Of a DNA stretch of 64,000 nucleotides, positions 57,709-59,835 are shown in pieces (the first letter of the stretch is position 1; every line of letters starts with the position of its first letter). The DNA comes from Runella slithyformis DSM 19594 (GTDB taxonomy: Bacteria; Bacteroidota; Bacteroidia; Cytophagales; Spirosomataceae): NCBI RefSeq assembly GCF_000218895.1, contig NC_015703.1, positions 5,159,001 through 5,223,000 of the forward strand, read 5' to 3'. The notes under the pieces were generated by a model. That model saw only the letters and a program-made list of their open reading frames with translations. It was not told the DNA's origin and searched no databases. A program made the position numbers and the translations under genes.

Positions 57709-57747
57709 CAAAAGGCAACCGGACAACCGGCTGCCTTTTGTGTTTTT
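57709..57747. terminator. Rho-independent terminator after cspA
   Basis: CAAAAGGCA (57709-57717) pairs with TGCCTTTTG (57732-57740) with an inner ACCGG/CCGG stem, followed by TGTTTTTT. Shared with the convergent ApbE gene. Confidence 0.75.
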
Positions 57748-58766
57748 TAATGGAAATTCGGGCTTTTCCATTCACGTCCATTTTGTTCAAGCAGCCAAAC
57801 GCGACTCTTTTTTATTTTTTTTGCCAACCTCTTGCCTTCCTCAATCCCTGATACACTGAATGCCGTGGCCAAGGCATCCGCAGCAGTACCGTTGGGCGCA
57901 ATAACCGTCGTACGTGTATGGGTAACCAGACCCAGCCCCGTGCGAGGGTCTACAATATGGGAATAGCGAACACCTTTATGCTCCAAAAAACGATAGGTAT
58001 TGCCGGAGGTTGCGACCCCGCAATGGGAAAGAATCAATACTCTTTTTGACGTTGAATCTTTTCCTCCCGAACTTACTTCTATTTCCCAACCCTCCTTTTG
58101 AGGCGGGGCATCACCGATGGTCAGATCGCCGCCGGCATCCAAAAAGGCACAAGTGATGTTAAATGCCCTTAATACACGCAGCGCATCATCTGCTGCATAG
58201 CCTTTGCCAATGCCGCCAAAGTCGATCCGCATCCCTTTTTGCGTAAGTATTACAGCCCTGTTTTTGGCACGGAGGCGCACCTTTTTATACCCGACGGCCT
58301 GTTTTACCTCCAGGATTTGGAGACTGTCCGGGAAGAAATTGCGACGTAAGGCGCGCCGCCACAGTTGCACCATGGGCCCCACCGTAACGTCAAATGTTCC
58401 GTTGGATTGCTTGCTGTAATACAGGGACTTTTGGAGGATATCAAACAGTATTTCACTTGCCGCAAATGCTTTTCCCGAGCCCGCAGTAGCCGAAAGTCGG
58501 TTGGTTTCACTGCCATCCAGGTAGTCACTTAAAATAGTATTTAAATAGTCAATGCGCTTAAATACACTGTCCGACGCAGCTTTGGCAATCGAGTCATTCG
58601 GTGCATAAAACACAAGATTAAACTCCGAACCCATCGCATTTCTGAAATAGGCGTAGCGCTGTTGTGCATTGACAGGGGCAGGAATATAGAAAAATGAAAT
58701 ACTAAAAATAAGGGCAAGTCGACAGCGAAAAGAGGGGACAGGATTTCTGAACTGTAATTTCATCAT
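57747..58766 (-). CDS. apbE: ApbE-family FAD:protein FMN transferase
   Basis: 339 residues with a signal peptide (ends A-P-V-N-A-Q). ApbE enzymes attach FMN covalently to Thr residues of membrane flavoproteins such as NqrB/RnfG and act in the periplasm. Family blocks: AMGSEFNLVFYA, FDVTVGPMVQLWRRA, RIDFGGIGKGYAADDALRVL, FLDAGGDLTIG, HCGVATSGNTYRFLEHKGVRYSHIVDPRTG and APNGTAADALATAFSV. The A-T-S-G-x-Y/N and H-I-I/V-D-P-R-T-G motifs are the FAD/metal site. Divergent from the leader-cysE unit. Confidence 0.92.
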   Translation of the reverse strand: MMKLQFRNPVPSFRCRLALIFSISFFYIPAPVNAQQRYAYFRNAMGSEFNLVFYAPNDSIAKAASDSVFKRIDYLNTILSDYLDGSETNRLSATAGSGKAFAASEILFDILQKSLYYSKQSNGTFDVTVGPMVQLWRRALRRNFFPDSLQILEVKQAVGYKKVRLRAKNRAVILTQKGMRIDFGGIGKGYAADDALRVLRAFNITCAFLDAGGDLTIGDAPPQKEGWEIEVSSGGKDSTSKRVLILSHCGVATSGNTYRFLEHKGVRYSHIVDPRTGLGLVTHTRTTVIAPNGTAADALATAFSVSGIEEGKRLAKKIKKSRVWLLEQNGREWKSPNFH

Positions 58767-58799
58767 TTGGTAAAATTGCTCTAGTCACAAATAAATTTC
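58766..58799 (+). promoter_or_regulatory. Candidate promoter for the leader-cysE unit
   Basis: TTTG at 58766-58769 and TAAATTTC at 58792-58799 (one mismatch to TAnnTTTG) with 22 bases between them, in range for Bacteroidota promoters. Transcription would start near 58805, about 37 bases before the leader ATG. Low certainty. Confidence 0.3.
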
Positions 58800-58841
58800 A
58801 TCTTTTTTGGTAAAAAGGAACCTTTTTGCACGGTTTTTGGT

Positions 58842-58913
58842 ATGGAAGTTATAAAAATCATTCCCGTGAATATCAAACCTGCTGCCGGTTGCTGTTGCTG
58901 TTTTCTTTGCTAA
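58842..58913 (+). CDS. Cys-rich 23-residue leader peptide
   Basis: ATG 58842 to TAA 58911-58913. The product ends G-C-C-C-C-F-L-C: Cys codons at 58890-58901 (TGC TGT TGC TGT) and at 58908. The rest (M-E-V-I-K-I-I-P-V-N-I-K-P-A-A) is ordinary. It lies between the divergent apbE start and cysE, and directly precedes a terminator-like hairpin. Five Cys of 23 residues in front of a cysteine-biosynthesis gene suggests a ribosome-stalling sensor of cysteinyl-tRNA. The peptide itself could alternatively bind metal, but position favours a leader. Confidence 0.7.
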   Translation: MEVIKIIPVNIKPAAGCCCCFLC

Positions 58914-58919
58914 GCATAA

Positions 58920-58990
58920 AAAAGGGAACGATTTACTCATTGAAACGAAGTGATTGAGCTGCCCTTTTCAAAAGAAAGGGCTTTTATTTT
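58920..58990 (+). promoter_or_regulatory. Terminator/antiterminator switch (transcription attenuator) before cysE
   Basis: Terminator: GCCCTTTT (58961-58968) with GAAAGGGC (58974-58981, one G-T pair), then TTTTATTTT (58982-58990). Competing arm: AAAAGGG at 58920-58926 can pair with CCCTTTT at 58962-58968, the terminator's own 5' arm, so both cannot form. A ribosome at the leader stop (58911) would cover the antiterminator arm; one stalled at the Cys codons would leave it free. That predicts cysE on when cysteine is scarce. Confidence 0.65.
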
Positions 58991-59007
58991 GCAACTCATT
59001 CCATGTC

Positions 59008-59835
59008 ATGACATTAACTGAACAAGAACTTACACTTTCTTTTTTAACGCGTCTTACCCAACAAAACGCCACCTATCGGCATAAACTTCCCTCGCGCAAC
59101 AGCGTTGGAAAATTTGTGGAAGAGATTATGTGTTTTCTGTTTCCAGTCACCCAGGATTGTGAGCGCTCATCGACGGATATTTCGGAGGCATATCGGCGCC
59201 TTCAAACCCGTTTAATCTGCCTGCTGGAGCCATTGGGCAAAAACCTTGAGACAGATAAAGAAATCGTCATGGAACGATTTCTGGCTCAGCTGCCCGACAT
59301 TTACGAGAACCTTATTCTGGATGCCCAGGCGATTTCCGACAACGATCCTGCTTCAGTGGGCATAGAAGAGGTGATTGCGGTATATCCGGGCTTCTACGCC
59401 ATTGCCGTTTATCGGTTGGCACACGCTCTGGTCGACCTGAATGTACCCTTGTTGCCCCGTATGCTTACCGAACATGCCCATGGATTAACCGGCATTGATA
59501 TCCATCCTAAAGCAAATATCGGTAGATCCTTCTTTATTGATCACGGTACCGGTGTTGTTATCGGTGAAACCACCGATATCGGCAATAACGTTAAAGTCTA
59601 TCAGGGGGTTACGTTGGGAGCCCTGAGTGTGTCAAAATCATTGGCTGAAACCAAGCGTCATCCAACCATTGAAGACAACGTGGTCATTTATGCCAATGCG
59701 ACCATTTTGGGTGGCAAAACGGTTATCGGTAATGATTCGATCATCGGCGGTAATGCGTGGCTGACGGCAAGTGTCCCGCCGTATTCGCAGGTTTATCACC
59801 AGAGCGAACTGAAGATACGCCAAACTTCTTTGTAG
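59008..59835 (+). CDS. cysE: Serine O-acetyltransferase
   Basis: 275 residues from 59008 (M-T-L-T-E-Q-E-L); a second ATG at 59003 is out of frame with the gene and a TTG at 58954 would start inside the attenuator. Transfers acetyl from acetyl-CoA to serine, the committed step of cysteine synthesis. An N-terminal helical domain (about 1-140) is followed by the left-handed beta-helix with hexapeptide repeats: [67 protein letters not shown]. The catalytic Asp and His are in G-I-D-I-H and F-I-D-H-G-T. EpsC-like type, typical for Bacteroidota. Likely controlled by the upstream attenuator. Confidence 0.9.

Follow-up and report, generated by a model that had tools for sequence, protein, structure and literature searches.

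A probable cysteine-codon attenuator in front of cysE in Runella, and cysteine-rich leader ORFs elsewhere in the Bacteroidota

Attenuators of the trp/his/leu type combine a leader peptide containing control codons with a terminator and an antiterminator that are mutually exclusive, and in known attenuators the switching depends on the order of synthesis. In the Firmicutes, cysteine genes including that for serine acetyltransferase are controlled by the T-box, where the tRNA binds the RNA directly. The leader of ilvB1 in M. tuberculosis is described as being of the ribosome-mediated attenuator type (PMC13236596). Leaders with cysteine codons have been described as well. The uORFC-8-2 motif in front of cysS in the Rhodobacterales is presented as a tandem-Cys leader ORF followed by an intrinsic terminator, where a ribosome stall is proposed to allow read-through (PMC8632094). 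Cys leader peptides are also reported for the cys/cbs operons of Mycobacterium, P. acnes and B. longum, for which the report states that no terminator hairpins were found (PMC1262725), and for the leader of M. smegmatis control at the level of translation has been reported (Canestrari 2020). Within the Bacteroidota, a flavobacterial transcriptome study mentions leader-peptide attenuation in front of amino-acid operons, which its text leaves unnamed and which could include cysteine operons (PMC9723704), and a map of Bacteroides thetaiotaomicron notes short ORFs that resemble leader peptides (PMC7366714). In searches of an open library we found no description of a cysteine leader from the Bacteroidota.

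The locus described here lies upstream of cysE in Runella slithyformis, in a window (the whole stretch of DNA analysed) of 64,000 nt. Its features are listed in Table 1. The leader peptide, the control codons and the terminator with its proposed antiterminator correspond to those of the trp/his/leu-type attenuators and ilvB1, which sense other amino acids; a possible further difference is that no clear pause hairpin was noticed in Runella. Compared by description, uORFC-8-2 shares with it a short leader ORF, tandem Cys codons and an intrinsic terminator, but is found in Alphaproteobacteria, precedes the gene for Cys-tRNA synthetase and has two Cys codons within a stem. The actinobacterial leaders are likewise short ORFs in front of cysteine genes, with a Cys-codon run close to their stop, but they have no terminator, whereas Runella has one. 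The mycobacterial leaders are leaderless, and that of Runella is possibly nearly so. Like the T-box, the switch that we propose would sense charged tRNA-Cys in front of cysE. Unlike it, the switch would use a leader peptide, and Rfam gave no match at gathering scores anywhere in the window; at E values up to 5, three matches were seen in 58700-59100, all far under gathering scores. The proposed Runella cysE switch would belong to a known class of attenuators, and Cys leaders are already known in the Actinobacteria and Rhodobacterales.

Table 1. Features around the cysE leader of R. slithyformis (positions in the window)
Feature	Position	Strand	Remarks
ApbE-family gene, divergent, upstream	57747..58766	-	PF02424, 223.7 bits
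Upstream element GAACCTTTTTGCACGGTTTTTGGTA	58818..58842	+	contains TTTTTG (58823-58828), which could be a -33 box
TATAAAA box	58850..58856	+	21 nt behind TTTTTG; possible -7 region
Cysteine leader ORF	58866..58913	+	GTG start, 15 codons, MNIKPAAGCCCCFLC, stop TAA at 58911-58913
Four control Cys codons, TGC TGT TGC TGT	58890..58901	+	
Fifth Cys codon	58908-58910	+	immediately 5' of the leader stop
Putative antiterminator strand AAAAAGGG	58919..58926	+	8-15 nt 3' of the base that opens the leader stop codon
Intrinsic terminator	58961..58990	+	stem 58961-58981, GCCCTTTT-CAAAA-GAAAGGGC; T-rich tail TTTTATTTTG
cysE, serine O-acetyltransferase, 275 aa	59008..59835	+	

The first-pass annotation had reported a Cys run, an extra Cys, a stop, AAAAGGG at 58920-58926 and a terminator, and all of these are present where it placed them. 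Its assignment of the downstream gene as cysE also holds: the product scores 155.5 bits against NF041874 (EpsC-type serine O-acetyltransferase; cut-off 150) and 161.3 bits against TIGR01172, under the cut-off of 210.65. Records named Runella have cysE copies that are 78-87% identical to it. CysE makes a cysteine precursor, which fits a leader with Cys codons. As the upstream ApbE-family gene is divergent, no plus-strand gene was seen that the terminator would close, and we rejected the idea that it ends a gene lying further upstream.

We propose that cysE in Runella is very probably controlled by ribosome-mediated transcription attenuation that senses charged tRNA-Cys. Transcription would start at or just 5' of the leader start codon, and RNA polymerase would be followed by a ribosome translating the 15 codons of the leader. 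A shortage of charged tRNA-Cys would stall the ribosome on the four Cys codons and leave the AAAAGGG strand free; this strand would pair with the terminator's 5' arm while the 3' arm is still to be transcribed, and the polymerase would read into cysE. With ample cysteine, the ribosome would stand at the stop codon with its footprint over AAAAGGG, the terminator would form, and cysE would be off. The location of the strand relative to the stop is at least partly within the usual ribosome footprint.

The first-pass annotation had suggested looking for conservation in relatives, and for the leader and the terminator this is found. cysE is present in all 13 Runella genomes examined, and the start, frame, Cys run and stop of the leader are conserved together with the terminator in ten of them. 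The run is CCCC in eight species and CCCCC in two of the R. zeae type, followed by three codons and the stop; in R. slithyformis the peptide ends Cys-Cys-Cys-Cys-Phe-Leu-Cys-stop. In these ten, 46-50 nt separate the first base of the stop from the beginning of the terminator, whose end lies 25-27 nt before cysE. The Cys codons show hardly any synonymous variation, so that a constraint at the nucleotide level is possible within the genus. In the remaining three genomes, G103 (R. defluvii), G075 and G124, the upstream element stands close to cysE, and leader and terminator are both absent, from which it follows that leader and terminator come and go together. That three of 13 species do without both counts against the attenuator. 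Their loci (L039, L040 and L043) offer natural comparisons. The more distant cysE copies of G075, G103, G095 and G119 have no such leader by eye.

The first-pass annotation had drawn the leader as an ORF of 23 codons from the ATG at 58842. We rejected this start: the ATG is found in two of the ten leader-bearing species, lies 5' of the TATAAAA box and sits between two conserved promoter-like boxes. The conserved start is at 58866 and gives the 15-codon ORF, with GTG or ATG kept in register in the leader-bearing Runella; in the zeae-type pair the leader starts a few codons earlier. From the start of TATAAAA to the leader start the distance is 15-16 nt in all ten, and the leader mRNA may therefore have little or no 5' untranslated part. 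The spacing of 21 between TTTTTG and TATAAAA is kept in 12 of the 13 Runella, no TATAAAA box having been found in G124. TTTTTG-21 nt-TATAAAA agrees only in part with the promoter consensus of the Bacteroidota; of the TATAAAA box, TA alone fits the -7 consensus.

The upstream element hardly varies across Runella, including the species that have no leader and no terminator. All 13 species match it over the first 22 nt if a single base is left free in G111 and another in G124, and a 20-nt piece of it has one exact copy in the R. slithyformis genome. It may serve as a promoter. The element at 58818-58842 is kept beyond what a promoter needs, and it is a possible protein site. If a protein regulator bound there and provided the cysteine control, leader and terminator would set only a basal level. 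The presence of the 22-nt core in all 13 species, including the three leaderless ones, and the single exact genome copy of the 20-nt piece speak for such a regulator, which could act additionally, but as the main control we find it distinctly improbable: it gives no account of the in-frame Cys run and stop, the terminator and the matched strand in ten of 13 species, nor of the Cys leaders in other lineages.

The terminator stem consists of 8 pairs, with a folding energy of -10.9 kcal/mol and a z of -1.97. Scanning 401 bases for terminators gave 3 sites versus 0.2 in shuffles; two of them are overlapping forms of the cysE terminator hairpin, and the remaining one lies within cysE on the opposite strand. 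Behind the leader, a terminator-like site is seen in 10/10 leader-bearing Runella (shuffle mean 0.4). Changes in the terminator across the genus are one-sided, except for an extra pair in G134.

Pairing of the antiterminator strand with the 5' arm of the terminator covers 8/8 positions in five species, 7/8 in three and 6/8 in the zeae-type pair. For R. slithyformis, where 7/8 positions pair, the shuffle P is 0.041; it ranges from 0.0005 to 0.041 in the eight species, which are not independent, and is about 0.2 in the zeae pair. When the strand is slid by 1-3 bases, 2-6 of 8 pairs are formed in most of the eight species, with 7 in one register of G134, and G111 reaches 8/8 when slid by one. The strand lies 7-14 nt behind the first base of the stop in G111, against 8-15 nt otherwise, and overlaps the stop in the zeae pair. 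One pair is changed on both sides, being A-T in R. slithyformis and G-C elsewhere; others are kept as G-U. The first-pass annotation had looked to compensatory changes in both stems, and here the outcome is mixed: the strand is kept in eight of ten species, but with this one two-sided change and a weak match in the zeae pair.

In the nascent transcript without the 3' arm, the antiterminator helix is part of the minimum-energy fold in seven of the eight species (total -11.6 to -17.1 kcal/mol), that of G129 folding in another register. Full transcripts at equilibrium showed no switch, the terminator dominating in every ribosome state tested with a probability of 0.65-1.00. Over its full 154 bases the leader shows no gain in stability over shuffles (z 0.27), and for the antiterminator stretch by itself z is -1.02. 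Given that the terminator wins at equilibrium in a region of no unusual stability, a switch would have to rely on the order in which the RNA is made, and hence on kinetic folding. For the claimed competition between antiterminator and terminator the picture is mixed, with 7-8 of 8 pairs in eight species, 6 of 8 in the zeae pair and no preference for the antiterminator at equilibrium.

A stall at the Cys codons could also act without the intrinsic terminator, by altering access to the cysE start (translation attenuation) or to Rho. For the mycobacterial Cys leaders, which lack terminators, Rho has been suggested (PMC1262725) and an effect on translation is reported (Canestrari 2020), and the other Bacteroidota leaders described below have no terminator-like site (0/26 and 0/29 loci). 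For Runella we nevertheless regard such control as distinctly improbable, given the terminator-like site with a T tail in 10/10 leader-bearing species.

With four to five adjacent Cys residues, the short ORF might encode a functional peptide, for instance one binding metal or thiols. This is very unlikely and was rejected: the run and the stop are kept, but the residues flanking the run differ between Runella species, as do most others, the ORF is missing in three species, and its position is fixed between the promoter-side element and the terminator of cysE.

Short ORFs with at least three Cys in the last six codons were counted in the 350 nt before cysE. They occur in 10 of 13 Runella, as compared to none in 20 dinucleotide-shuffle rounds and none on the reverse strand. 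In the 6.9 Mb genome, TGYTGYTGYTGY has 55 occurrences versus 44 for the reversed control, showing that a Cys run on its own is no rarity; a stretch of 150 nt would be expected to hold about 0.0006 Cys4 runs on one strand (calculated by hand). Besides this leader, only two of the 55 matches are outside ORFs of at least 600 nt. At locus L086 of the same genome, around position 1500, an ORF starting MYCCCC... begins just before, and out of frame with, the start of another gene, which we take to be transporter-like. That a Cys-codon ORF stands beside an unrelated terminator by chance, as the genome-wide count of 55 against 44 might suggest, is extremely unlikely in view of its conservation in ten of 13 species versus none in shuffles. 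A point against the attenuator is that a Cys leader was seen neither before Runella cysK (0/12 readable of 13 loci, L414 being at a contig end) nor before cysD (0/12 loci, up to 1.5 kb upstream). Anatomy and conservation together strongly support the reading of the Runella locus as a cysteine attenuator, and on this reading cysE would respond to cysteine.

A search of 200 genomes of the family with the Runella leader peptide gave matches in 82 at E values up to 10. Among 30 match loci that were read, six are the Runella cysE loci and the rest are scattered weak matches. Of 197 genomes with cysE, 68 were covered by the leader count, 13 of Runella and 55 of other Spirosomataceae; L044 and L240, second copies of L201 and L047, are excluded from that count. 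In the 55, at least four Cys in the last eight codons were found in none, at least three in the last six in one, and at least two in the last six in seven, against a shuffle mean of 3.35. By eye, another group of these cysE loci (L045-L048, L050, L054-L060) has a different upstream motif in common, roughly CCTCAnnnCGGGGCAA...TTCTAC.

A survey of 168 genomes of the phylum gave cysE matches in 98 (E up to 1e-20). Among 69 cysE upstream regions, Cys-rich short ORFs were found at five of seven loci of family f15, which is in the Bacteroidota but outside the class of Runella, and at L287 and L281; the ORF at L281 is far upstream and probably a chance occurrence. The sets outside Runella, f15 and genus g45 are at chance level, except for L287 (genus g45) among 62 loci and L128 among 70. 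L128 is from a single fen MAG labelled Bacteroidales and has MQHSKIYNILTCNNILCCYCCCCIC before cysE, 214-139 nt ahead of the match; this leader counts 25 residues, of which eight are Cys, and all but one of the eight fall within the last nine.

In f15, 28 of 57 genomes have a cysE match, and 26 of these 28 loci (L310-L337) carry a short ORF with at least two Cys in the last eight residues, ending 79-122 nt before the cysE match; L322 and L324 have no Cys leader. With at least two Cys in the last six codons, the count is 24 of 28 (L327 having been read at a wrong offset), versus four on the reverse strand; shuffles averaged 1.6 and reached 4 at most. The leaders come in two forms, one with Cys runs such as NNCTCCCC and one with a motif like GYxxTCIC at the stop. 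At L402 the order is leader-cysE-cysK. No terminator-like site was seen between leader and cysE at any of the 26 loci.

Of 30 cysE loci taken from genus g45, which is presumably Flavobacterium-like, ten are close orthologues of one paralogue. Seven of these ten have a conserved leader of 27-28 residues with a TTG start, consensus MKTxEKISSYIxPKKYTYNTFCYMCFCC and the conserved end …TYNTFCYMCFCC; in the three without a leader, the end of another gene lies upstream by eye. The 20 more distant cysE loci (one misread) have no such leader, with isolated unrelated hits in three. A profile of the seven leaders gave 62 matches including the seven (E 2e-6 or better) in 35 of 199 genomes by hand count. 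Thirty of these loci were taken and 29 were readable. L380, cut by a contig end, and L363, read at a wrong offset, are in no positive count. The leader loci of this genus span L369-L398, L399-L401 and L403.

The next gene behind the leader at the 29 loci is SusC-like at 18, cysE at five, a sulfatase at five and a family 2A encapsulin at one; one SusC, two sulfatases, one cysE and the encapsulin were checked by HMM, and the rest were assigned by N-terminal likeness. cysK is found in the clusters at L400 and L401, and a YeiH-like transporter, under its cut-off, at L399. At L403 the gene for an encapsulin cargo cysteine desulfurase adjoins the family 2A encapsulin gene. A second short ORF, MK.M(Q/H).CCCK, is present at 13 of the 18 SusC loci, and a hairpin sequence, TTTCTGCGGCAACnGAAA, at 21 of the 29 loci and all 18 SusC loci. 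In the best fold of L379, the one locus folded, the Cys codons of the second leader pair with the hairpin; the centroid retains the hairpin. Between leader and gene no terminator-like site was found (0/29), and Rfam gave no match at gathering scores in ten g45 loci, the sub-threshold matches being far under the cut-offs.

In lacking a terminator-like site, the f15 and g45 leaders resemble the mycobacterial type, whose Cys-codon leader ORFs the first-pass annotation had correctly mentioned (PMC1262725). The mechanism of the f15 and g45 leaders probably differs from that in Runella. By eye, nothing but the Cys-rich ends is common to the leader sequences of the different lineages, a hint that they may have arisen by repeated invention. 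The cases in f15, g45 and L128 support the idea that several groups within the phylum sense cysteine through translation of a leader. The first-pass annotation had regarded a cysE attenuator in the Bacteroidota as possibly undescribed; this is still tenable for the open literature searched, but the case does not stand alone, as Cys leaders are also present in two or more further lineages of the Bacteroidota.

On the sequences at hand, we consider it an even bet that the cysteine-codon leaders of the Bacteroidota mark a sulfur-starvation regulon. In Runella this would take the form of a terminator switch on cysE. In f15 and g45, leaders with Cys-rich ends at or near the stop (CCCC, GYxxTCIC, TYNTFCYMCFCC) would govern cysE, at some loci together with cysK, as well as SusC/SusD receptors, sulfatases and sulfur-linked family 2A encapsulins without an intrinsic terminator, perhaps via Rho or a stall aided by the nascent peptide; at most SusC loci, the second Cys leader would face the conserved hairpin, which at L379, the only locus folded, could pair with the Cys codons of this second leader.

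If the Runella attenuator is real, the Bacteroidota would gain a cysteine-sensing route for which we found no description, and its anatomy gives sharp predictions. More interesting than this switch is the broader collection of leaders in front of sulfur genes. If it holds, it would tie a translational sensor to the scavenging of sulfate esters and to family 2A encapsulins, and the cysteine desulfurase cargo gene beside one encapsulin suggests when the shells may be made.
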